Shown here: piece by piece, positions 16,887 to 28,619 of the stretch
Layout: each line of letters starts with the position of its first letter
How positions within the stretch are numbered: position 1 is the first letter of the stretch
Assembly (NCBI RefSeq): GCF_017876655.1
Contig: NZ_JAGIOK010000001.1
Location: forward strand, 2,108,001 to 2,172,000
Reading direction: 5' to 3'
From: Microbacterium imperiale
GTDB taxonomy: Bacteria; Actinomycetota; Actinomycetes; Actinomycetales; Microbacteriaceae
DNA: 64,000 nucleotides
The notes under the pieces: generated by a model
What the model was told of the DNA's origin: nothing
Databases searched by the model: none
What the model saw: only the letters and a program-made list of their open reading frames with translations
Translations under genes and position numbers: made by a program

Positions 16887-16895
16887 CGTTACATT
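16887..16895 (+). promoter_or_regulatory. CGTTACATT: rpiR -10 region and possible operator
   Basis: TACATT (16890-16895) fits a -10 box for the regulator gene starting at 16934. The overlapping octamer CGTTACAT is the exact reverse complement of ATGTAACG at 17854-17861, in front of the phosphatase/ABC operon. The shared octamer suggests the regulator binds both places; this is inference. Confidence 0.4.
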
Positions 16896-16933
16896 CGGTC
16901 GGAACTCGTCTCCCTCGACGCGCAAGGACGGCC

Positions 16934-17764
16934 ATGACGATCTCCCGCCCCGAACTCAGCGTGCTGGCGCGCATCCGCTCGTCCGCGTCGCTGCTCGGTC
17001 CGAGCGAGGCGAAGGTCGCCGCGCTCATCGTCGAACGCGCCGATGAGGTCGTCGAATGGTCGACGGCGGAACTGGCGCAGGCCGCGGGCACGTCGACGGC
17101 GACGGTCATCCGCGCGTGCCAGAGTCTGGGCTTCCGCGGTTTCCAGCACCTGCGCCTCGAGCTGGCACGCTCCGCGCCGATGAAGGCACGCGACGGCGAC
17201 GACGTCGCCTCGGGCGCCTTCGACGACGCCGTCGAAGCCGTGCGGCTCGCGCAGGAGAGCGTCAGCCCCGCGAGCGTCGCCGCTGCGGTCGAGCTGCTGC
17301 GGGGCGCGCGGCGGGTCGTGCTCGTGAGCAACGGCTTCTCGGGACCGCCATTGCAGGACTTCGCGATGCGCCTGAGCACTCTCGGGCGGGCGGTCGAGGC
17401 TCCGATCGACCCGCTGGCGCAGCAGTTCGCCGTCGCCTCACTCGGCGAGGACGACCTGTGCTTCGCCCTCAGCTACTCGGGGGCCAACGTGCAGACCCTC
17501 CGCGCCGCGGCGGCCGCCCGCGATCGCGGCACTCCGGTCGCCGCCGTGACGAGCTTCGCCCGGTCGCCGCTCGGCCGGATCGCCGGGGTGGTCGTCGCGA
17601 CGGGGCCGGCCGCGGCCGCCCATGACGTCGATCCCTTCCTCGCGCGCATCGGGCACACGGTCGTGCTCCACGCGCTGCACTCGGGTCTCGCCGACGGCAC
17701 CACGCCGACGGATGCCGCGGGCATGCGTCACGTCGTCGCGGACGCCATCGCCGAGGAGGAGTAG
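16934..17764 (+). CDS. MurR/RpiR-family transcriptional regulator
   Basis: 276 residues. The N-terminal HTH_6 domain (about 1-80) has LGPSEAKVAALIVERADEV and the recognition-helix region TSTATVIRACQSLGFRGFQ. The C-terminal SIS domain (about 110-250) has VVLVSNGFSGPPLQDFAMRL and FALSYSGANVQTL. SIS domains in this family bind phosphorylated sugars or related phosphate esters. The start is supported by AAGGACGG just upstream. The gene is followed by a PTP-type phosphatase, a phosphoesterase, an ABC importer and a histidine phosphatase, so it probably controls that set. Confidence 0.92.
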   Translation: MTISRPELSVLARIRSSASLLGPSEAKVAALIVERADEVVEWSTAELAQAAGTSTATVIRACQSLGFRGFQHLRLELARSAPMKARDGDDVASGAFDDAVEAVRLAQESVSPASVAAAVELLRGARRVVLVSNGFSGPPLQDFAMRLSTLGRAVEAPIDPLAQQFAVASLGEDDLCFALSYSGANVQTLRAAAAARDRGTPVAAVTSFARSPLGRIAGVVVATGPAAAAHDVDPFLARIGHTVVLHALHSGLADGTTPTDAAGMRHVVADAIAEEE

Positions 17765-17794
17765 CCCCCAGCGTTCACTTTCCGGTCAGCCGCG

Positions 17795-17823
17795 CGTCAC
17801 CGCCGTGCCAGCATCCGGTGACG
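17795..17823. repeat. Inverted repeat after the RpiR gene
   Basis: CGTCACCG (17795-17802) and CGGTGACG (17816-17823) form an 8-bp stem with a 13-base loop. There is no T-run, so it is either a weak terminator for the regulator gene or an operator in front of the following operon. Confidence 0.4.
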
Positions 17824-17853
17824 TCGGGCGACTGTAATCGCGTTCCGTGAGAG

Positions 17854-17872
17854 ATGTAACGCACGTAACGCA
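17854..17872 (+). promoter_or_regulatory. Tandem GTAACGCA repeats upstream of the phosphatase/ABC operon
   Basis: GTAACGCA occurs at 17856-17863 and 17865-17872, 9 bp apart, just before the ATG at 17884. The first copy begins with ATGTAACG, found inverted at the regulator's own promoter. A possible -10, TGTAAT, lies at 17833-17838, which would put the repeats just downstream of transcription start, a repressor position. Confidence 0.45.
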
Positions 17873-17883
17873 GGCTGGTCGCG

Positions 17884-18555
17884 ATGCTCGCGATTGACAT
17901 CGAGGGACTGTTCAACGTCCGTGCGACACGCGCCCGGGCTCCGTGGCTCGTCCGCTCCGGCGCGCCCGAGGCCCTGACCGACGCCGGCGCCGCCGCCCTG
18001 GCCGAGCTGGGCGTCTCGGTCATCCTCGACCTGCGCGAACCGTCGGAGCACGGGCCCGTGCGCCACGGCATCCCGGTCCGCTCGGTACCCCTCTACGGCG
18101 CCGAGCCGCCGGCGACGGGCGGGCTCGAGGCCATCTACGAGCAGCTGCTGCGCGAGCGCGGCGACGCCCTCGCGCGCGCCGTCGGCGTGGTGGCCGAAGC
18201 CGACGGTGCAGCCCTGGTGCACTGCACCGCGGGCAAGGACCGCACCGGCCTCGTCGTGGCGCTCGCGCGCCGCGCCGCCGGCGCGACGGCGGACGAGGTC
18301 GTCGCCGACTACGTCCTGTCGGCGCCGCACGTGCGCCCCGTGCGGGCTGAGCACGCCGAGCACATCGCCCGAGCCCTGCCGGGCGAGGAGCGCGCCGGGA
18401 TCCTGCGCCTGCATCTCGAGAGCCCGCCCGAGGCGATCGCGCACGCCCTGTCGGTCATCGACGAGCTCGGCGGCGCCGAGCGGTACCTCCGCGCGCACGG
18501 CCTGCGCGCCGACCAGGTGGCGGCGCTGCGCCGCAAGAACAGCGGTGCGGCATGA
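17884..18555 (+). CDS. Tyrosine/dual-specificity-type protein phosphatase
   Basis: 223 residues. The P-loop HCTAGKDRTG (H113, C114, R120) is the CX5R active site of the PTP family (Y_phosphatase3 type, related to MptpB and phosphoinositide phosphatases). The N-terminus holds NVRATRARA and LVRSGAPEALTDAGAAAL, corresponding to the FRDLGG and RS segments of this group. No signal peptide, so cytoplasmic. The gene overlaps the metallophosphoesterase by ATGA. Together with the two other phosphatases of this operon it suggests a phosphorylated small-molecule substrate, but protein phosphatase activity cannot be excluded. Confidence 0.88.
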   Translation: MLAIDIEGLFNVRATRARAPWLVRSGAPEALTDAGAAALAELGVSVILDLREPSEHGPVRHGIPVRSVPLYGAEPPATGGLEAIYEQLLRERGDALARAVGVVAEADGAALVHCTAGKDRTGLVVALARRAAGATADEVVADYVLSAPHVRPVRAEHAEHIARALPGEERAGILRLHLESPPEAIAHALSVIDELGGAERYLRAHGLRADQVAALRRKNSGAA

Positions 18556-19340
18556 GCCGCGCGACCGGCCGGCTGACGGTGCTGCACCTGAGCGACGTCC
18601 ACGCGACGGTCGACGGCCGTCTCTACGACGCGGTCGACGGCATCGAGCGCCTGCGCATGGTGGGCGCGTACGTGCGCGACGCCGGGATCACCCCCGAGGC
18701 CATCGTCGTGACCGGCGACCTCGTGCAGCGCGGCCACGCCGCGGCCTACCCCGCCCTGCGCGACGCGCTCGCGCGGCTGGCCGATATCACCGGCGTTCCC
18801 GTCCTGACGGCGCTCGGCAACCACGACGAGCCCGACGCCGCGCGCATCCTGAGCGGCCACGCGGAGTCGCACCACCGCGTCGAGCTCGTCGACGAGCTGC
18901 GCTTCGTGCTGCTCGACAGCTCGAGCGGCGAGCTGGGCGACCCGCAGCGCGCGTGGCTCGGGGACGTCCTGCGCTCGCCGCACGGTGCCGGAACCGTCAT
19001 CGGGCTGCACCATGCCCCGCTCGGCTCGCCGCTTCCCACGCTGGCGCGCGCGGGCCTCCGCGACGCCGACGCCTTCCTCGACACGATCGCCGGCAGCGAC
19101 GTGCGCGCCGTGCTGGCCGGGCACTTCCACCATCCGCTGTCGGCGACGCTGCGCGGCATCCCGATCTCGGTGGGTCCGTCGCTGGCGTACCACCAGGTCA
19201 TGGACGCCGGACCCGACCGCGTCAGCGGACACGACCTCGCGATGTTCTCGCTCGTGCATCTGCTGCCCGAGGGCATCACCGTCACCAACGTCGGCCTCGA
19301 CTCTCCCGCCCCGATCTTCTCCTCCCTCCTCACCCGATGA
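18552..19340 (+). CDS. Calcineurin-like metallophosphoesterase (CpdA/GpdQ-like)
   Basis: 262 residues. All metal-binding blocks are present: HLSDVHATVDG, VVTGDLVQRG, ALGNHDEPDA and VLAGHFHHPLS, with a late GHD. The size and the order match class III cyclic nucleotide phosphodiesterases and glycerophosphodiesterases (CpdA, GpdQ). It is cytoplasmic, with no signal. It overlaps the PTP gene (ATGA), and its end runs into the first possible start of the substrate-binding protein. The phosphodiester substrate is unknown; the link to an importer favours a nutrient phosphodiester over cAMP. Confidence 0.88.
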   Translation: MSRATGRLTVLHLSDVHATVDGRLYDAVDGIERLRMVGAYVRDAGITPEAIVVTGDLVQRGHAAAYPALRDALARLADITGVPVLTALGNHDEPDAARILSGHAESHHRVELVDELRFVLLDSSSGELGDPQRAWLGDVLRSPHGAGTVIGLHHAPLGSPLPTLARAGLRDADAFLDTIAGSDVRAVLAGHFHHPLSATLRGIPISVGPSLAYHQVMDAGPDRVSGHDLAMFSLVHLLPEGITVTNVGLDSPAPIFSSLLTR

Positions 19341-19357
19341 CACCCGATAGGAACCCC

Positions 19358-20395
19358 ATGTCCCGCATGCGCTCCACCGTCCCCCTCGCCCTCCTCGGCG
19401 TCGCCGCGATCGCCCTGGCCGGCTGCTCGTCGAGCACGAGCCCGGCCGCCACCGCCGAGCCCGCCGCCGGCGCCCTCGAGCCCGCGACGATCACGCTGTA
19501 CACGTCCGAGCCGCAGGAGAAGGCCGACGAGCTCGTCGCCGCCTTCAACGAGATCCACCCCGAGATCACCGTCGAGGTGTTCCGCGCCGGCACCGGCGAC
19601 CTGACCACGCGCGTCGCGACCGAGCGCGAATCGGGCGGCATCCAGGCGGACGTGTTCCTGGCCGCCGACGCCGGCACCTTCGAGGGCTACGCGGCCGAGG
19701 GGCTGCTGCTGGAGTACACCCCGGCCGACGTCGAGGCGCTGAACGCCGACGTCGTCGACGCCGAGGGCTTCTACACCGGCACCCGCATCATCCCGACCGT
19801 CATCGCCTACAACACCGGCATCATCACCGAGGCGCCCGAGTCGTGGCAGGAACTGACCGACGCCGCCTACGCCGACCAGATCGTCATGCCCAACCCCGAC
19901 GTCTCGGGCGCGGCCGCGTACAACGCCGCGGTCTGGCTCGACGACGAGCAGCTGGGCGAGGAGTGGATGACGGCGCTCGCCGAGAACCGCCCCGTGATCG
20001 CCGACAGCAACGGGCCCGTGTCGCAGGCGGTCGCGACCGGGGCGCAGCCGGTGGGCATCGTGGTCGACTACCTCGTGCGCGAGCTCGCCGAGCAGGGCTC
20101 GCCCATCGCGGTGTCGTACCCGAGCGAGGGCGTGCCCTACGTGTCGCAGCCCGTCGGCATCTTCGCCGACACCGAGCAGGCCGAGGCCGCCCAGGCGTTC
20201 GTCGACTTCCTCGTCAGCGAGGAGGGTCAGAAGCTGGCCGTCGAGCAGTCCTACCTGCCGGTGCGCTCGGACGTCGGAACGCCCGAGGGCGCGCCGTCGA
20301 TGGACGAGATCACGATCCTCTCGCCCGACCTCGAAACCATCCGCAGCACGCAGGATGCCGCGGTCGAGACCTTCCGGTCGCTCTTCCTTCGATGA
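19358..20395 (+). CDS. ABC importer substrate-binding lipoprotein, FbpA/AfuA type
   Basis: 345 residues from ATG 19358, which follows GATAGGAA; ATG 19337, overlapping the previous stop, is an alternative adding 7 residues. The signal peptide ends in a lipobox LALAGC with lipidated C23. The mature part is a periplasmic-binding-protein fold of the Fe(III)/2-aminoethylphosphonate/hexose-phosphate group: LYTSEPQEKADELVAAFN, then VMPNPDVSGAAAYN, then GIVVDYL. The adjacent tyrosine pair that binds iron in classical FbpA is not evident. With an RpiR regulator and three phosphatases in the operon, an organophosphate ligand is at least as likely as iron. Confidence 0.88.
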   Translation: MSRMRSTVPLALLGVAAIALAGCSSSTSPAATAEPAAGALEPATITLYTSEPQEKADELVAAFNEIHPEITVEVFRAGTGDLTTRVATERESGGIQADVFLAADAGTFEGYAAEGLLLEYTPADVEALNADVVDAEGFYTGTRIIPTVIAYNTGIITEAPESWQELTDAAYADQIVMPNPDVSGAAAYNAAVWLDDEQLGEEWMTALAENRPVIADSNGPVSQAVATGAQPVGIVVDYLVRELAEQGSPIAVSYPSEGVPYVSQPVGIFADTEQAEAAQAFVDFLVSEEGQKLAVEQSYLPVRSDVGTPEGAPSMDEITILSPDLETIRSTQDAAVETFRSLFLR

Positions 20396-22059
20396 CCTCG
20401 ACCCCACTCCTCCCCGCGGGCTCGGCGATCCGAGCCCGCGGGGCGGTCCGTCGGCGGACCGACGGCGTCGACGCGCTGGTCGTCGCGCTCTGGCTCGCCT
20501 GCGGCGGGCTCATCCTGCTGCCGATCGGCGCTCTGCTCGTGCTGGCGGGCCGCGGCGATCAGCTGGGGGTGCTGCTGCACGGCGACGTGCTGCAGGCCGG
20601 CGCGAACAGCCTGTTCTCGGCGACGGTCTCGGCGCTCGCGGCCGTCGTCATCGGCACGACCTTCGCGGTGCTGCTGGACCGCACCGACCTGCCCGGGCGA
20701 ACGGTGCTGCGACTGCTCGCGCTGAGCCCGCTGCTCATGCCGCCGTTCGTCGGCGCCATCGCCTGGCTCGGGATCGCCGGCCCGACCAGTCCGCTGAACC
20801 TCTGGTGGCGCGGCACGTTCGGGGCCCCGCTGTGGTCGATCTACGGCGCCGACGGCGTCATCCTGCTGCTGACGATCCACAGCTATCCCATCGCGATGCT
20901 CATCGTCTCGGCCGCCCTGCGCCGCATCCCCACCGATCTCGAGCAGGCCGCCCGGATCAGCGGCGCGGGACCGGCCCGGGCGCTGACCTCGGTCACGGTG
21001 CCGCTGCTGCGGCCAGCGCTGGTGTCGTCGTTCGTGCTCATCGCCGTCGGGAACCTCGCCGACTTCGGCATCCCGTCGATCATCGGTCTGCCCGAGCGGT
21101 TCGTCACCCTTGCCACCCTCGTTTACCGCTACCTGCAGTCGGGCACCGTCGACGACCCGCTCGCGGTGGTCGCCACGATCGGCGTCGTCCTGCTGGTGCT
21201 CGCCCTGCTGGCGCTCGTCGCCGACGGGCTCTTGGCGCGCCGCGGGTGGGAGCTCGACTCGTCCAACGCGGTGCCCGAGCGCACACCGCTCGGGCACGCC
21301 CGCGTGGGGGTGGGCGCGATGATGTGGGCCGTCGTGCTGCTCATCACGGTGCTGCCGCTGCTCGCCCTCCTCACGCAGACGCTGCTGCGTGCGCCCGGGG
21401 TGCCGCTGACCTGGGAGAACCTCACCCTCGACCACCTCGTCCGGGCCGTCACCACGCCCAGCGCGCTCGCCGGCGCGGCGAACTCGACCATGCTCGCCTC
21501 GCTCGCCGCGGTGATCTGCGGGATCCTGGGCCTGGCCATCGGCGTCGTCGTCGCCCGAACGAGCGGCCGCGCACCGCGGGCGCTCGGCGCCGTGGCGATG
21601 GTGCCGCAGGCGATCCCCGGGATCGTCATCGCCGTCGCCTGGCTCATCCTGGCTCCCTCGCTCGGCCTGTTCAACACCCCGTGGCTGATCCTCGTCGCCT
21701 ACGTCACCTCGTTCACCGCCCTCGTGGTGCAGGCCGTGGCGGCGCCGCTGTCGGCGACCCCGACGAGCGCGGAAGAGGCCGCGCGCGTGGCGGGCGCCGG
21801 ACGCCTGCGAGCCCTCGTCGACATCTCCGCGCGCATGGCGACGCCCGCCGCGGTCGCCGGTGCGGTCATCGTCGCCGTGACCGCAGTGCGCGAGCTGACG
21901 CTGTCGGTGCTCCTGCTGTCGCCGGGGTCGCAGACGCTCGGCGTCGCGATCTTCAACTTCCAGCAGGCCGGGGCGTTCAGCACGGCATCCGCGTGGTCGC
22001 TCATCGTCGCCCTGGTCGGACTGGCCGTCATCGGCCTCGCGACCCGGCGCACCTCCTAA
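20392..22059 (+). CDS. ABC importer permease, two-domain FbpB type
   Basis: 555 residues with about 12 membrane segments and two complete permease units. The two EAA loops read EQAARISGAGPARAL (about residue 184) and EEAARVAGAGRLRAL (about residue 460), the docking sites for the ATPase. This fused architecture is typical of Fe(III), thiamine and aminoethylphosphonate importers. ATG overlaps the binding-protein stop (ATGA). Confidence 0.93.
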   Translation: MTSTPLLPAGSAIRARGAVRRRTDGVDALVVALWLACGGLILLPIGALLVLAGRGDQLGVLLHGDVLQAGANSLFSATVSALAAVVIGTTFAVLLDRTDLPGRTVLRLLALSPLLMPPFVGAIAWLGIAGPTSPLNLWWRGTFGAPLWSIYGADGVILLLTIHSYPIAMLIVSAALRRIPTDLEQAARISGAGPARALTSVTVPLLRPALVSSFVLIAVGNLADFGIPSIIGLPERFVTLATLVYRYLQSGTVDDPLAVVATIGVVLLVLALLALVADGLLARRGWELDSSNAVPERTPLGHARVGVGAMMWAVVLLITVLPLLALLTQTLLRAPGVPLTWENLTLDHLVRAVTTPSALAGAANSTMLASLAAVICGILGLAIGVVVARTSGRAPRALGAVAMVPQAIPGIVIAVAWLILAPSLGLFNTPWLILVAYVTSFTALVVQAVAAPLSATPTSAEEAARVAGAGRLRALVDISARMATPAAVAGAVIVAVTAVRELTLSVLLLSPGSQTLGVAIFNFQQAGAFSTASAWSLIVALVGLAVIGLATRRTS

Positions 22060-22073
22060 GCAGAAAGGCCGTC

Positions 22074-23144
22074 ATGGCATCCGTCACCCTCGAGAACGTC
22101 TCGCTGCGCTACCGCAACGGCACGCTCGGCCTCGCCGACATCGACCTCGATATCGCAGACGGCGAGTTCATCGCCCTGGTCGGGCCCTCGGGCTCGGGCA
22201 AGACCACCCTGCTGCGCAGCGTCGCGGGATTCCTCACGCCCACCGCGGGGCGCATCCTCATCGGCGACCGTCAGCTCGCGGGCGGCTCGGTCTCGGTGCC
22301 GCCCGAGCAGCGCGAGCTCGGCATGGTCTTCCAGCAGCACGCGGTCTGGCCGCACTGGAACGTCGCGCGCAACGTCGAGTACCCGCTCCGACGTGCGCGC
22401 GTGTCGCGCCTCGAACGGCAGCGGCGCGTCGCCGAGGCACTCGAGCTGGTGGGGCTCGCGGGGTACGAGCGGCGCGACCCCGCGACCCTGTCGGGCGGAC
22501 AGCGGCAGCGCGTCGCCCTCGCCCGGGCGCTCGTGGCCCGTCCCCGGGTGCTGCTGCTCGACGAAGCATTGTCGGCCCTCGACGAGCCGCTGCGCGATCG
22601 CCTGCGCCTCGAGCTGCACACCCTCACCCGTGAGCTCGGGCTCACCGTCATCCACGTGACGCACGACCGGTCCGAGGCGCTCGCGCTCGCCGACCGCGTC
22701 GCCGTCCTCGATGCCGGCCGCATCCGTCAGATCGCCGCACCGCAGACGTTGCTCGAGCGCCCCGCCAGCCCCTTCGTCGCGCGATTCCTCTCCGACGCGA
22801 CGCTCGTCGACGGGCACGTCGCTGCGGGACGCTTCCGTGCGGCCGACCACCCGCTCGCCCTGCCGTGCGACCTGTCGCTGCCCGACGGCAGCGCCGCGAC
22901 GGCGGCGATCCTGCCCGCCGCGGTGCGGATCGTCCCGGGAGATGACGCGGTCGTCCGCTCGACGCTGTTCACCCCCGAGGGCAGCGACGTCGTCGTCACC
23001 TGGCACGGCATGACGCTGCGCGTGCGCACCCACGGGATGCGCCCGCAGGTCGGCGATCGCGTCGCGGTCGAGGTCGGGCACGCCGTCGTCTATCCGCACG
23101 AGCCGGCGGTCGCCGCCGAGCTGCCCGTCGCGACGCCGGCATGA
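22074..23144 (+). CDS. ABC importer ATP-binding protein
   Basis: 356 residues. Walker A GPSGSGKTT (about 40-48), signature LSGGQRQRVALARAL, Walker B LLLDEALSALD and HVTHDRSEALAL switch His. The C-terminal 115 residues form a TOBE-like regulatory domain. Start ATG 22074 follows AGAAAGG. It energises the permease at 20392-22059. The stop overlaps the ATG of the histidine phosphatase, so that enzyme is tied to the transporter operon. Confidence 0.95.
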   Translation: MASVTLENVSLRYRNGTLGLADIDLDIADGEFIALVGPSGSGKTTLLRSVAGFLTPTAGRILIGDRQLAGGSVSVPPEQRELGMVFQQHAVWPHWNVARNVEYPLRRARVSRLERQRRVAEALELVGLAGYERRDPATLSGGQRQRVALARALVARPRVLLLDEALSALDEPLRDRLRLELHTLTRELGLTVIHVTHDRSEALALADRVAVLDAGRIRQIAAPQTLLERPASPFVARFLSDATLVDGHVAAGRFRAADHPLALPCDLSLPDGSAATAAILPAAVRIVPGDDAVVRSTLFTPEGSDVVVTWHGMTLRVRTHGMRPQVGDRVAVEVGHAVVYPHEPAVAAELPVATPA

Positions 23145-23677
23145 CCCTCGCCCTCGTGCGGCACGGCCGCACCCCCTGGAACCTCGAGCGCCGGATGCAG
23201 GGGCGCTCCGACATCGCCCTCGACGACGTCGGCCGCAGCCAGGCGGATGCCGCCGGGCGCGTGCTCTCCGCGGCCGTCTGGACCCGCGTCGTCACGTCGC
23301 CGTTGCGCCGAGCGGCGGAGTCGGCCGACATCATCCGCATGCACCTGCCCGGCGCCGGCTGCGACGTCGAGCCCGACCTCGTCGAGCGGGACTACGGCGC
23401 CGCAGAGGGCCTCGCCGTGTCCGACGTGCGACAGCGATGGCCCGACGAGGACTATCCGGCGGCCGAGTCGCTCGCGCGAACGCAGGAGCGCGGCATCCGG
23501 GTCGTGCGTGCGCTCCACGATGCCGGCGGCAGCACCATCGTGGTCGCCCACGGCACGCTGCTGCGGTTGACGATCGAGGGGCTGACAGGGCACCGCTGCC
23601 CGCGGATCCTCAACGGCGAGGTCGTGCTGCTCGAGCAGGTGGGCGACCGTTTCCGTGCCCGGCGGCTGGTCGAGTGA
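23141..23677 (+). CDS. Histidine phosphatase family protein
   Basis: 178 residues. The branch-1 signature LVRHGRTPWNLERRMQG (catalytic His in RHG) starts at about residue 5. The acidic partner lies in VERDYGAAEGL and the second His in VVAHGTLLRL. The family hydrolyses phosphomonoesters or acts as a mutase; the substrate cannot be read. It overlaps the ABC ATPase gene (ATGA) and is the third unrelated phosphatase in this operon. No terminator is obvious in the 70 bases after it. Confidence 0.92.
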   Translation: MTLALVRHGRTPWNLERRMQGRSDIALDDVGRSQADAAGRVLSAAVWTRVVTSPLRRAAESADIIRMHLPGAGCDVEPDLVERDYGAAEGLAVSDVRQRWPDEDYPAAESLARTQERGIRVVRALHDAGGSTIVVAHGTLLRLTIEGLTGHRCPRILNGEVVLLEQVGDRFRARRLVE

Positions 23678-24828: not shown

Positions 24829-25821
24829 TTATCGCCGAGCGGGTGCGTTCTCGGCGTGGGTCGCGCCCGCGGCGGGCCAGTGCACCGAGACCGCGAGGCG
24901 TCGCTGAGGAGCGGTGTCGAGCGGTGCGTCGAGCAGGGGGATGAGCGCGGCCATGGCCTCGCGGCCGAGCGCGTCGCCGTCGACGTCGATCGCCGGCACG
25001 TCGTCGGCACCGATCGCCTGGGCGACGAGGCGCTCCGCGCTGACGAGGATGTCGCCGGGCGAGGCGACGCCGCGGGCGCGCAGCGCGAACACGAGGCCGA
25101 GGCCGATCGAGGTCGCATAGGGCACGACGGCCGTCGCGCCGCTGTCGATGACGGCGTCGGCGGTCGCGACTCCCGCGGCGAAGGTCGAGGGCAGGGGGCC
25201 GAGGGTCGTCAGCGTCACCCGGTCGCCGACCGCCGCCGCGATGGCCGCGGTGCGCTGCCGGTCCTGCCACGACCCCTCGGGTCCGCCCAGGTAGGCGATG
25301 CCGCGGTGGCCGGCGTCGGCGAGCCGGCCGGCCAGGTCGGCGAAGGCGGTCGCGGTGTCGGCGACGATCGAGGGGATGCCGTCGATCTCGCGGTCGACGA
25401 GCACGGTCGGGCCGAGGGCGCCGACGGCCCGCACGATGTCGTCGGGTCCGCGCGGTGCGACGAGCACGCAGCCGTCGACCTGGCGCACGAGACGCTCGAG
25501 CTCGACCAGTCCGTCGGCGTCGTCGAGACGGTGGACGGCGACCGTGAGCTGCAGGTCGGACTCCCGCGCCCGGGCCTGCGCGCCCGCGATGATCGGTGTG
25601 AAGAAGGCGTTGTCGAGCGTCGGCACGACGAGGGCGACGATTCCGCTGCGGCCGCGGGCGAGGTGGCTGGCGGCCCGGTTGGGGATGAACCCGAGCTGCT
25701 CGGCGGCGGCGCGCACCCGCGCGACGGTGTCGGGCGCGACGAGGTCGGGCCGGCTGAGCGCGCGCGAGGCGGTCGACTTCGCCACCCCTGCGTGGGCGGC
25801 GACATCAGCCAGCGTCGTCAC
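24829..25821 (-). CDS. LacI-family transcriptional regulator
   Basis: 330 residues. The N-terminal HTH reads TLADVAAHAGVAKSTASRAL, and the hinge helix lies near NRAASHLARGRSG. The C-terminal periplasmic-binding-like domain binds an effector. It is divergent from a Pot-type ABC operon, and three GCAACCGGTTGY palindromes lie in the 205 bases between them, the expected operators. Most LacI members sense sugars or nucleosides/purines; the deaminase at the end of the target region favours the latter, as inference. Confidence 0.93.
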   Translation of the reverse strand: MTTLADVAAHAGVAKSTASRALSRPDLVAPDTVARVRAAAEQLGFIPNRAASHLARGRSGIVALVVPTLDNAFFTPIIAGAQARARESDLQLTVAVHRLDDADGLVELERLVRQVDGCVLVAPRGPDDIVRAVGALGPTVLVDREIDGIPSIVADTATAFADLAGRLADAGHRGIAYLGGPEGSWQDRQRTAAIAAAVGDRVTLTTLGPLPSTFAAGVATADAVIDSGATAVVPYATSIGLGLVFALRARGVASPGDILVSAERLVAQAIGADDVPAIDVDGDALGREAMAALIPLLDAPLDTAPQRRLAVSVHWPAAGATHAENAPARR

Positions 25822-25879
25822 CGCACTCCTTCCGTGACCCGCGCGATCGCGCTCGGTCGGCTCATCCTACTGAGCCGAA

Positions 25880-25891
25880 GCAACCGGTTGC
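25880..25891. promoter_or_regulatory. LacI-type operator O1
   Basis: GCAACCGGTTGC, a perfect 12-bp palindrome with the central CG typical of LacI-family sites. It lies 59 bases upstream of the regulator's own start, suggesting autoregulation. Confidence 0.75.
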
Positions 25892-25968
25892 GTTCGGCCC
25901 GCGCCGTCGTTTTACACGTTGTTTACACGATTGGTCGACGCGACCGTCCCGCGGGCCATACGGTGGAA

Positions 25969-25992
25969 GCAACCGGTTGTGCAACCGGTTGC
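25969..25992. promoter_or_regulatory. Two abutting LacI-type operators O2-O3
   Basis: GCAACCGGTTGT (25969-25980) is followed without a gap by GCAACCGGTTGC (25981-25992), 35 bases before the first permease start. Site spacing of 12 bp is unusual for two dimers, because the footprints would overlap. Confidence 0.75.
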
Positions 25993-26026
25993 GCCCGCAC
26001 CCTCCTCGCTCGAACGGAGTTCGCTC

Positions 26027-26848
26027 GTGGTCTCACGCCGCACCGGACTGCTCGCCCTGCCCGGGTTGGCGCTGCTGCTGGCGGGGTTCCTGATCCCCTC
26101 GATCGCGATGCTCTTCGCGCCTCCGGGGGTCAGTCCGCTCGACATCCTCGACCGGCTCGGGCGCATGCTCACCGACCCGTTCGATCTCGCGATCATCGGC
26201 CGCACGGTCGGCCTCGGCCTGATCGTGACCGTCGTCTGCATCGTCCTCGGCTTCCCGATCGCCTACCTGCTGGCGCGCTCGACCTCGCGGTGGGCGGGCG
26301 TGCTGCTCGCGCTCGCGATCTTCCCGCTGCTGCTGAGCAACGTCGTCCGCACGTTCGGGTGGCTCGTGCTGCTGGGCTCCAACGGCGCGATCGGCCAGCT
26401 GCTCACCGGACTCGGCCTCGTCGACCGTGCACCGCAGCTGCTCTACACCGAGCTGGCCATCGTCCTGGGTCTCACGCAGCTCTTCCTGCCGCTCGCGATC
26501 ATCTCCTGCTATTCCGCCGTCGCGCAGGTCGATCCCGGACTGGATGACGCCGCGCGCGGCCTCGGCGCGAGCCGCACCCGCACCTTCTGGGGCATCGTCG
26601 TGCCGCTGTCGGCGCCCGGCATGGTCGTCGCCGCGACGCTCGTCTTCGCCGGCAGCGTCACCGCCTACACGACGCCGTACCTCCTCGGCGGATCCAGCCA
26701 GCGGATGCTGTCGACCCAGCTGTACTCGTACTCGAGCGTCACGATCGATTGGGCCGCCGCGAGCGCGACCGCGATCATCATGACGGTGCTCGTGTTCGCC
26801 GTGTCGGGCCTGTCGGCCGTCGTCGGACGACGGGGGGCCACCTCGTGA
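26027..26848 (+). CDS. ABC importer permease, PotB-like
   Basis: 273 residues from GTG 26027, preceded at a good distance by CGGAG; longer readings upstream would run through the operators. Six membrane segments are predicted. The EAA loop reads DDAARGLGASRTRTFWGIVVP (about residues 175-195), as in spermidine/putrescine-type permeases. It overlaps the second permease (GTGA). First gene of a four-gene importer under the LacI operators. Confidence 0.92.
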   Translation: MVSRRTGLLALPGLALLLAGFLIPSIAMLFAPPGVSPLDILDRLGRMLTDPFDLAIIGRTVGLGLIVTVVCIVLGFPIAYLLARSTSRWAGVLLALAIFPLLLSNVVRTFGWLVLLGSNGAIGQLLTGLGLVDRAPQLLYTELAIVLGLTQLFLPLAIISCYSAVAQVDPGLDDAARGLGASRTRTFWGIVVPLSAPGMVVAATLVFAGSVTAYTTPYLLGGSSQRMLSTQLYSYSSVTIDWAAASATAIIMTVLVFAVSGLSAVVGRRGATS

Positions 26849-27630
26849 AGACCAGTCGCCCGGTCGCGGCATCCCTCGCCGTCGCCGGCTACATCATCAT
26901 GATCGTGCCGATCCTGTTCGTCGTCGCCACGGCGTTCACAGGCGGACGGACGCTGCGCTTCCCGCCCGAGGGGTTCTCGCTGCGGTGGTTCGAGGCGGCG
27001 CTGAACTACGACCCGTTCGTCAGTGCTCTGCTGTCGAGCCTGCAGCTCGCGCTGATCGCGACCGTCCTCGCGCTGCTGATCGGTGTGCCGGTGACGCTCG
27101 CGATCCACCGCGGCAAGAGCCTGGTCGAAGGGCTCTTCCTCTCGCCGCTCATCGTGCCCGAGCTCGTCGTCGGCCTCGCGCTGTACCAGCAGCTCATGAT
27201 CGGCCTGCGCCTCGACAACTTCCCCGTGCTGCTCATCGGCCACACGGTGCTGATGCTGCCGTACGCCGTGCGCGTCACGGGCGCCTCGCTCGCCCTGGCC
27301 GACCCGGGCATCGAAGAGGCGGCTCGCGGCCTCGGCGCCTCGCCGCTGCGGGCCTTCTTCACCGTGACGCTCCCGCTGCTGCGACCCGGCATCTTCTCGG
27401 CGGGTCTGCTGAGCTTCGTCACCTCGTTCAACAACGTGCCGCTGTCGCTGCTACTGCAGAGCCGCGACTTCCGGACGCTTCCCGTCACCATGCTCGACTA
27501 CGTCCAGCAGAGCTACGACCCCATGGTCGCCGCGACCAGCACCATCATCCTGGCGGGCACCGTCGTCATCGCCGTCATCGCCGAGCGCACCGTCGGCTTC
27601 GCCCGCATCTTCGGAGGGATCAACCGATGA
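26845..27630 (+). CDS. ABC importer permease, PotC-like
   Basis: 261 residues from a GTG overlapping the PotB-like stop. Six membrane segments; EAA loop EEAARGLGASPLRAFF (about 155-170). N-terminal segment YIIMIVPILFVVATAF and the spacing match PotC-type permeases. It forms the heterodimeric channel with the preceding gene product. Confidence 0.92.
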   Translation: MKTSRPVAASLAVAGYIIMIVPILFVVATAFTGGRTLRFPPEGFSLRWFEAALNYDPFVSALLSSLQLALIATVLALLIGVPVTLAIHRGKSLVEGLFLSPLIVPELVVGLALYQQLMIGLRLDNFPVLLIGHTVLMLPYAVRVTGASLALADPGIEEAARGLGASPLRAFFTVTLPLLRPGIFSAGLLSFVTSFNNVPLSLLLQSRDFRTLPVTMLDYVQQSYDPMVAATSTIILAGTVVIAVIAERTVGFARIFGGINR

Positions 27631-28619
27631 CCACCGCAGCAGAGTTCGTCGGGGTGACCCAGCGCTTCGGCGACTTCACCGCCGTCGACGACATCGACCT
27701 CGCCATCCCGGCGGGGCAGCTGACGACCCTCCTCGGGCCCAGCGGATGCGGCAAGACCACGTCGCTGCGCATGCTCGCCGGCTACGCGCAGCCGACGTCG
27801 GGGCGCATCATGATCGCCGGGACCGACGCCACGCGCACGCCGCCCGAGCGCCGGGGGCTGGGCATGGTGTTCCAGTCCTACGCCCTGTTCCCGCACATGA
27901 CGGTCGCCGAGAACGTCGGGTACGGCCTCAAGCTGCGCAAGGTCGCCGCGCCCGAGCGCCGCCGTCGCGTCGACGAGGCCCTGGGCCTGGTCGGCCTCGG
28001 TCACCTCGCGGCGAGCCGGCCCAAGAAGCTCTCGGGCGGCCAGCAGCAGCGCGTCGCGCTCGCGCGTGCGATCGCCATCCGCCCGACCCTCCTGCTGCTC
28101 GACGAGCCGCTGTCGAACCTCGACGCCCGGCTGCGCGTGCAGATGCGCGCCGAGATCCGCCGCATCCAGTCCGAGACCGGCCTCACGGTCGTGCTCGTCA
28201 CGCACGACCAGGACGAGGCCCTCGAGATGTCCGACCGCATGGTCCTCATGCGCGACGGCCGCATCATGCAGGAGGGCGCTCCGTCCGCGGTGTTCACGGC
28301 TCCCGCGAACCGCTTCGTCGCGGAGTTCCTGGGCTACGAGAACTTCATCGCCACGCCCGACGGCGGCCTGACCACGGTCCGGCCCGAGCACCTCGTCGTC
28401 GGCGCCGCGTCCGGCGCGGCCGGCCTGGCGCTCGACGGCGTCGTGACGGATGTCGCCTACCGCGGCGTCGACCGGCTCGTGACCGTCGAGACCGCGGATG
28501 CCGCCGGCACGACGGTGCGCCTGATCGCGGACGTCCGCGACGAGGCCGTGCTCGCCCGGCCCGGCGATCGCGTCACGGTATCCGCGCCGCAGGCGCGACT
28601 CATCCGCCTCGCGGCCTAA
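27627..28619 (+). CDS. ABC importer ATP-binding protein, PotA-like
   Basis: 330 residues; ATG overlaps the permease stop (ATGA). Walker A GPSGCGKTTSLRMLAG, signature LSGGQQQRVALARAI, Walker B LLLDEPLSNLDARLR and switch VTHDQDEALEMSDR. The C-terminal part (about 235-330) is a TOBE_2-like domain, short for PotA. An unusually C-rich 79-base spacer separates it from the binding-protein gene. Confidence 0.95.
   Translation: MTTAAEFVGVTQRFGDFTAVDDIDLAIPAGQLTTLLGPSGCGKTTSLRMLAGYAQPTSGRIMIAGTDATRTPPERRGLGMVFQSYALFPHMTVAENVGYGLKLRKVAAPERRRRVDEALGLVGLGHLAASRPKKLSGGQQQRVALARAIAIRPTLLLLDEPLSNLDARLRVQMRAEIRRIQSETGLTVVLVTHDQDEALEMSDRMVLMRDGRIMQEGAPSAVFTAPANRFVAEFLGYENFIATPDGGLTTVRPEHLVVGAASGAAGLALDGVVTDVAYRGVDRLVTVETADAAGTTVRLIADVRDEAVLARPGDRVTVSAPQARLIRLAA

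Follow-up and report, generated by a model that had tools for sequence, protein, structure and literature searches.

A Predicted Pho-Controlled, RpiR-Linked Operon for Organophosphate Ester Uptake in Microbacterium imperiale and Related Actinobacteria

Introduction

A seven-gene locus of Microbacterium imperiale combines an RpiR-type regulator and three unrelated phosphatases with an ATP-binding cassette (ABC) importer of a kind commonly labeled as an iron transporter, which raises the question of what the importer carries and what the enzymes do with it. The locus lies in a stretch of 64,000 nt (hereafter the window; NCBI RefSeq assembly GCF_017876655.1, contig NZ_JAGIOK010000001.1, positions 2,108,001 to 2,172,000 of the forward strand), and coordinates refer to the window unless a locus label precedes them. 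A sequence-only reading of the window had proposed that the importer brings in a phosphorylated compound or phosphodiester which the phosphatases release in steps, and this proposal is supported here by PHO boxes in the promoters, by the loss of iron-site residues in the binding protein, and by an analogous operon with a Ugp-type importer. With a probability of roughly two in three, we read the locus as a Pho-controlled, RpiR-gated operon that imports intact organophosphate esters, probably phosphodiesters, which are dephosphorylated in the cytoplasm. The same reading knew of no named system with this exact gene set, and no published description of the operon was found in the literature searched, which consisted mostly of titles and abstracts and of papers outside subscription.

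Gene Content and Conservation of the Locus

Seven genes with open frames occupy the + strand between 16934 and 23677, an RpiR regulator followed by a run of six, and the Pfam domain matches of all seven proteins exceed the gathering score, so that every component named in the sequence-only reading is present. The features of the locus are as follows.

16934 to 17764, + strand: RpiR-type regulator, 276 aa; HTH_6 and SIS domains; orthologue in 56 of the 80 loci described below
17773 to 17805, + strand: PHO-box-like direct repeats, three GTTCACC-related 11-nt units, score 16/21
17833 to 17870, + strand: candidate RpiR operator, TGTAA-N5-TTCCG and then two GTAACG half-sites, 27 of 29 consensus positions
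17884 to 18555, + strand: CX5R phosphatase (PTP), 223 aa; Y_phosphatase3; HCTAGKDR; N-terminal signal not apparent
18552 to 19340, + strand: class III metallophosphoesterase (MPE), Rv0805/SpdA-like, 262 aa; Metallophos; GNHDEPD; N-terminal signal not apparent
19358 to 20395, + strand: substrate-binding lipoprotein, 345 aa; SBP_bac_6; LAGC lipobox; FbpA/AfuA/PhnS fold
20392 to 22059, + strand: fused ABC permease, 555 aa; two BPD_transp_1 stretches
22074 to 23144, + strand: ABC ATPase, 356 aa; ABC_tran
23141 to 23677, + strand: histidine phosphatase of branch 1, 178 aa; His_Phos_1; LVRHGRT; N-terminal signal not apparent

The RpiR start codon lies 47 nt downstream of 16887, where the earlier account of the locus began, and the HTH_6 plus SIS pair is the domain composition of the RpiR/MurR family. 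After a gap of 119 nt between rpiR and the PTP gene, the six genes overlap or nearly do so, as had been read, with three 4-nt overlaps and gaps of 17 and 14 nt.

A search for the MPE in 150 genomes of the family gives a close orthologue (at least 49% identity) in 10, the window's own included, and the next listed matches reach at most 42% identity. The grouping of the genes is beyond chance, since in all nine other genomes both rpiR and the gene for the binding protein are located no farther than about 4.5 kb from the MPE; among these relatives the PTP was not found in two (G122 and G116) and the histidine phosphatase was not found in three (G122, G120, and G072, where the contig is cut). When 17 loci and the window were compared, no gene family outside the module recurred in more than three places. 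When named genomes were scanned more widely, 107 relatives of the binding protein emerged; the best 80 of these supply the loci counted here, in which module genes were called by profiles built in this analysis. All seven genes occur in 44 of these 80 loci, and individually the MPE is found in 61, the PTP in 58, RpiR in 56 and the histidine phosphatase in 48, counts that are lower bounds because several loci are cut by contig ends. The most constant phosphatase is the MPE, present in 61 of the 63 phosphatase-bearing loci. The gene set is kept across many genera, a conservation that the sequence-only reading had named as a check on its proposal: MPE-bearing loci occur in Microbacterium, Pseudoclavibacter, Leucobacter, Agrococcus, Rathayibacter, Glaciihabitans, Plantibacter, Cryobacterium, Labedella and a few others, and further in Rhodococcus (jostii and koreensis), Yaniella and Arthrobacter (the last without RpiR). 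In three Yaniella loci and one metagenome-assembled genome (MAG) of Micrococcaceae, the histidine phosphatase precedes rpiR, so the order is altered and the set kept. Distribution is patchy, with the binding protein found at an E-value of 1e-20 in two of eight listed genomes of the window's own genus (up to seven candidates scored per genome).

Several individual loci deserve mention. Cryobacterium melibiosiphilum carries two identical copies of a reduced module (PTP and importer) on two scaffolds, L102 and L103, their identity being judged by match coordinates, percent identity and binding-protein sequence. In Microbacterium paludicola (L085:8499-13672) a Mutator-family transposase precedes the importer, which is the only part of the module found in that locus. 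Two importer copies that lack phosphatases, at L071:10153-12253 and L124:7724-8392, have copper-type genes in their vicinity (DUF1775/YcnI, with CopD in L071). A record titled Vibrio cholerae strain 35D (L079, WNZI01000002.1) holds a complete Microbacterium-like module with a binding protein of 82% identity, which is most likely assembly contamination. Directly downstream of the locus in the window, at 24829-28619, translations read as a LacI-like regulator (- strand) and a second ABC importer (+ strand) of two permeases and an ATPase.

Regulatory Signals in the Promoter

The motif GTTCACC was flagged by enriched k-mers between rpiR and the PTP gene. PHO boxes of Streptomyces coelicolor are 11-nt direct repeats in which GTTCACC is the most conserved motif, according to the available text of PMC4415409, and the repeats at 17773-17805 are predicted to be such a box. 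In 79 promoters we scored pairs and triplets of GTTCACC units with a spacing of 8–15 nt, leaving out L103 as one of two identical loci and the contig-edge locus L101; 62 promoters belong to loci with an MPE (window included) and 17 to loci without (15 importer-only loci, L085 and the PTP-bearing L102). In the MPE group the score peaks at the 11-nt spacing with z-values of 20.4 for two units and 22.6 for three, and in the group without MPE the same spacing is also highest (z of 5.4 and 9.2), values that overstate independence because many of the loci are related. Other spacings give z of 2.4–11.3 and −0.6 to 3.1 in the two groups, respectively, raised in part because single units are enriched too. 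For three units alone, the other spacings of the MPE group stay at z of 2.4–8.9. Exact GTTCACC is present in 31 of the 62 MPE promoters vs. 1.0 in shuffles, and the reverse strand stays near the shuffles in most of these tests.

A PHO score of at least 14 is reached by 45 of the 62 MPE promoters (the window and 44 of 61 others) and by 9 of the 17 without MPE (8 of the 15 importer-only loci), the background being 7 of 440 for intergenic-like pieces and 22 of 1560 for flank windows matched in length. A pstS-like gene of the same genome, whose protein scores 197.9 bits vs. a cut-off of 205, has a matching upstream signal (score 16, two exact GTTCACC), and among the pstS-like promoters of the family a PHO-type signal is seen in 21 of 29, the window genome's included (31 loci, two of which were too short to score). 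By this signal, most loci appear to have the importer under Pho control, whether or not phosphatases accompany it.

Adjoining the PHO box is an array of TGWAAC half-sites. Its consensus of 29 positions was read by eye from 20 rpiR loci and derives partly from the window locus itself. A score of at least 16/29 is found in 53 of 57 loci with rpiR vs. 1 of 22 without, and outside the loci used for the consensus in 33 of 37 vs. 0 of 11, with 110 of 1120 random flank 110-mers reaching the same score. Because the array tracks the presence of rpiR, we regard it as a candidate RpiR operator. Its first 15 nt resemble TGTAGT-N3-ACTACA, the site that the accessible part of PMC5489143 gives for RccR, a protein of the RpiR family.

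Iron boxes, scored against a 19-position consensus, are not enriched: a score of at least 14 occurs in one of the 79 promoters (locus L151), and the window promoter reaches 11/19.

The Binding Protein and Its Ligand

The predicted model of the binding protein (pLDDT 90.2) is matched about equally by STM0429, AfuA, VcA0625, HitA and MctA.

The fold is shared with FbpA/HitA, and among 120 listed relatives many are called “iron(III) transport system substrate-binding protein.” On this database annotation the system would import ferric iron, and the phosphatases would be adjacent for another reason. The ferric site of FbpABC-type importers comprises two adjacent iron tyrosines and an N-terminal histidine. 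In the window protein the second HitA tyrosine aligns with L234 (L in 78 and V in 3 of 81 sequences) and the histidine with P47 (81 of 81), so the canonical iron-site residues are not kept. One locus, L151, does carry an iron-box-like site of 16/19, but the scarcity of such sites over the promoters as a whole, the PHO boxes and the co-conserved phosphatases all speak against iron, which we find very hard to credit as the substrate.

The sequence-only reading had also pointed to hexose-phosphate and aminoethylphosphonate binders among FbpA relatives, and neither identity is borne out. By profile alignment, AfuA residues S37, D206 and E229 correspond to T74, D232 and E252, and H205 corresponds to V231; the roles of the AfuA residues, including the need for H205 in glucose 6-phosphate (G6P) binding, are those described in the available portion of PMC4546632, and P5PA likewise has T at the S37 phosphate position (PMC8427247, partial text). 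T74, S178, G179, V231 and D232 are invariant in all 81 sequences, importer-only loci included, with S178-G179 lying in the phosphate loop, and position 252 is E or D throughout. These invariant contact positions suggest one ligand across the family. AfuA identity was rejected on the replacement of H205, even with D206 kept and E229 either kept or D. An AfuABC-like importer of sugar-phosphate monoesters, with phosphatases that free the sugar and an MPE acting as a monoesterase, would fit the fold and part of the contact residues; the loss of H205 makes hexose phosphates bound in the AfuA manner less likely, and the most constant phosphatase is of the phosphodiesterase type, so we hold this explanation to be possible and rather doubtful. 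Membership in UgpBAEC was likewise rejected: it requires a CUT1 binding protein and two separate permeases, and the window importer combines an SBP_bac_6-type protein with a single fused permease.

The closest NCBIfam models of the three importer parts are PhnS2, PhnU2 and PhnT2, which invites the idea of a 2-aminoethylphosphonate (2-AEP) importer of the AepXVW/PhnS2T2U2 group. All three matches fall far below their cut-offs, however, at 132.5/392.75, 140.9/593.25 and 286.5/457.7 bits, respectively. Neither PhnX nor PhnW passed its cut-off in any of 23 genomes, 21 of them bearing the module and 2 the importer only (best matches 112.1/220 and 101.9/400.8 bits, respectively), in a search limited to these two enzymes among 2-AEP routes, whose sensitivity is not demonstrated as 14 control genomes also gave no positive. 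2-AEP is thus an unlikely ligand, and we assign this rival only a slight chance.

The Enzymes

The MPE contains the complete class III phosphodiesterase motif D-(X)n-GD-(X)n-GNH[E/D]-(X)n-H-(X)n-GHXH, as formulated in the accessible text of PMC4222275, with residues D15, G55-D56, GNHD 89–92, H153/H154 and GHFH 190–193 invariant in 11 aligned sequences. This motif, together with the presence of the MPE in nearly all phosphatase-bearing loci, favors a phosphodiester as substrate. The closest solved relative is Rv0805 (E-value 1.4e-55 with the 11-sequence profile) and the best NCBIfam model is SpdA. Both enzymes prefer 2',3'-cyclic nucleotides (PMC4222275, in part), which is consistent with an importer that takes up nucleotides, or their 2',3'-cyclic forms, released by the decay of RNA, the MPE opening the cyclic phosphodiester. 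Against this stand the 78.2 bits of the SpdA match, far below the cut-off of 400, and the lack of any nucleosidase or nucleobase gene among the seven, and we consider a nucleotide substrate improbable.

For the other two enzymes, PtpB is the sole solved relative of the PTP at threshold, and the histidine phosphatase shows similarity to a number of phosphatases and mutases. As judged by hydropathy and by reading, the three phosphatases have no obvious N-terminal signal and the binding protein has a lipobox; should the imported compound be the substrate of the phosphatases, it would have to cross the membrane whole. The genome carries two GDPD proteins elsewhere, which means that the MPE would not be its only such route.

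A Second Operon with a Ugp-Type Importer

A search for the PTP in the same 150 family genomes returned 11 genomes at an E-value of 1e-25, with four matches outside the module. One of these lies in an operon of similar design at L202:5133-13666 (genome G063), in the order RpiR, ATPase, CUT1 binding protein, PTP, MPE, UgpA-like permease, UgpE-like permease, VOC and histidine phosphatase, and a counterpart at L238:6988-13605 (G491; assembly 86% complete and 7% contaminated) runs in the same order from an RpiR cut by the contig end to the UgpE-like permease at 51–78% identity. The two belong to two other genera of Microbacteriaceae; no match to the L202 histidine phosphatase was seen on the L238 contig. 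The L202 ATPase scores 444.3 bits, above the UgpC subfamily cut-off of 432. When the L202 PTP was searched in 349 genomes, 39 of them gave a match at an E-value of 1e-50, and among the 30 loci returned with 1.5-kb flanks, L202 and L238 alone show these neighbors.

The L202 MPE falls in a paralogue clade usually found outside such operons (47–64% identity to 20 of those, 35–42% to 10 module MPEs), and the enzyme set therefore seems to have been put together separately. PHO-box scores of the L202 and L238 promoters are 15 and 13. The L238 promoter has TGTAACG and GAAACG half-sites, and a TGGAAC site was seen by eye just inside the L202 ATPase frame as called. A PTP-histidine phosphatase pair with no MPE or importer match in 18 kb stands at L203:8100-9431.

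Proposed Mechanism and Significance

From the computed gene set, its conservation, the PHO-box and operator signatures, the catalytic motifs and the three phosphatases without apparent signal, we infer regulator binding, the direction of RpiR action, import, the substrate class and the order of the enzyme steps. When phosphate is low, a PhoP-type regulator would bind the PHO box and switch on the six-gene operon. RpiR would hold the same promoter through the TGWAAC array, releasing it or switching in response to a phosphorylated intermediate sensed by its SIS domain. Outside the cell, the lipoprotein would catch the organophosphate, with permease and ATPase bringing it in whole, after which the cytoplasmic MPE would open the ester, which is most likely a phosphodiester similar to the glycerophosphodiesters, and the PTP and histidine phosphatase would remove phosphate from the resulting monoesters. 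Glycerophosphodiester-like esters would be the best fit to the MPE, the Ugp-type variant and the Pho control.

A number of observations weigh against this assignment, in addition to the relatedness of the loci behind the promoter statistics. Seventeen of the 62 MPE-linked promoters score below 14; these include the promoters of the two module-bearing Rhodococcus (12), of two Agrococcus MAGs (11) and of the whole Yaniella group, four in number (11), and some lineages are without a recognizable PHO box. In the divergent locus L151, from an Actinomycetaceae MAG with MPE and importer and no RpiR, the PHO score is 14 and the MPE match is preceded at about 71 nt by the iron-box-like site; at the margin of the family, this locus tells against a uniform reading. 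The importer can stand alone, since in 17 of the 80 loci (15 excluding L101 and L085) no phosphatase gene lies close to it. Thirteen of these are from Rhodococcus or Rhodococcoides, the other four including L101 at a contig edge and L085 beside its transposase, and in the tree the two module-bearing Rhodococcus nest within the importer-only ones. In the binding protein, the AfuA phosphate contact T150 aligns with A180, and the specificity of class III phosphodiesterases is not readable from sequence (PMC4222275, available text). In the Ugp-type variant, the L202 permeases lie below their cut-offs (UgpA-like 100/335, UgpE-like 133/297 bits) and the binding protein bears only a weak resemblance to UgpB (28.5 bits vs. 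a cut-off of 411); the CUT1 class includes Ugp, and this protein is no clear UgpB.

If import of intact organophosphate esters is correct, it adds another such route in Microbacteriaceae, Micrococcaceae and some Rhodococcus, and corrects a common “iron(III) transport” label. In the accessible sections of a review, phosphate transport in Streptomyces and related actinobacteria is described as less versatile than in enterobacteria, with no evidence in Streptomyces for entry of intact sugar phosphates and with a Ugp system in C. glutamicum (PMC7866108). We tentatively suggest, at somewhat less than even odds, that some actinobacteria scavenge intact phosphodiesters under two keys, low phosphate (PhoP) and an organophosphate sensor (RpiR), with three unrelated cytoplasmic phosphatases finishing the work and with a portable cassette that joined independently to AfuA-like and Ugp-type importers. 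Were this so, it would contradict the Streptomyces-based view in which sugar phosphates and nucleotides are stripped of phosphate outside the cell. With this operon, a single binding protein, a single phosphodiesterase and a single promoter would be enough to test the question.

Comparison with Known Systems

The locus shares with the hexose-phosphate ABC importers AfuABC and VcA0625 the binding-protein fold, part of the contact residues and the iron-importer label, and differs from them in the H205 to V and T150 to A replacements, the fused permease, the three phosphatases, RpiR and a PHO-box promoter. AepXVW (PhnS2/T2/U2) provides the closest NCBIfam models for the importer parts and has, like the window locus, a PF13343 binding protein, but the window importer is below all the cut-offs and its PhnW and PhnX partners did not exceed theirs in the genomes searched. 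P5PA/P5PAB, a pyridoxal-phosphate importer, has an AfuA-like binding protein with the same T at the S37 phosphate position; unlike the window system, it serves a different ligand class, occurs mainly in Pasteurellaceae, and has in p5pAB no adjoining ATPase gene. With the class III phosphodiesterases Rv0805 and SpdA the MPE shares the complete metal motif, and it departs from them in belonging to an import operon and in scoring far below the curated SpdA cut-off.

UgpBAECQ of E. coli and C. glutamicum performs glycerophosphodiester uptake under Pho control, and if our reading is right the window operon is its counterpart in design, a Pho-controlled ABC import of organophosphate coupled to a phosphodiesterase. 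It differs in that its importer belongs to another ABC family, an MPE replaces GDPD, and a PTP, a histidine phosphatase and RpiR are added. The variant of L202 and L238, with its CUT1 importer, bridges the window operon and UgpBAECQ.

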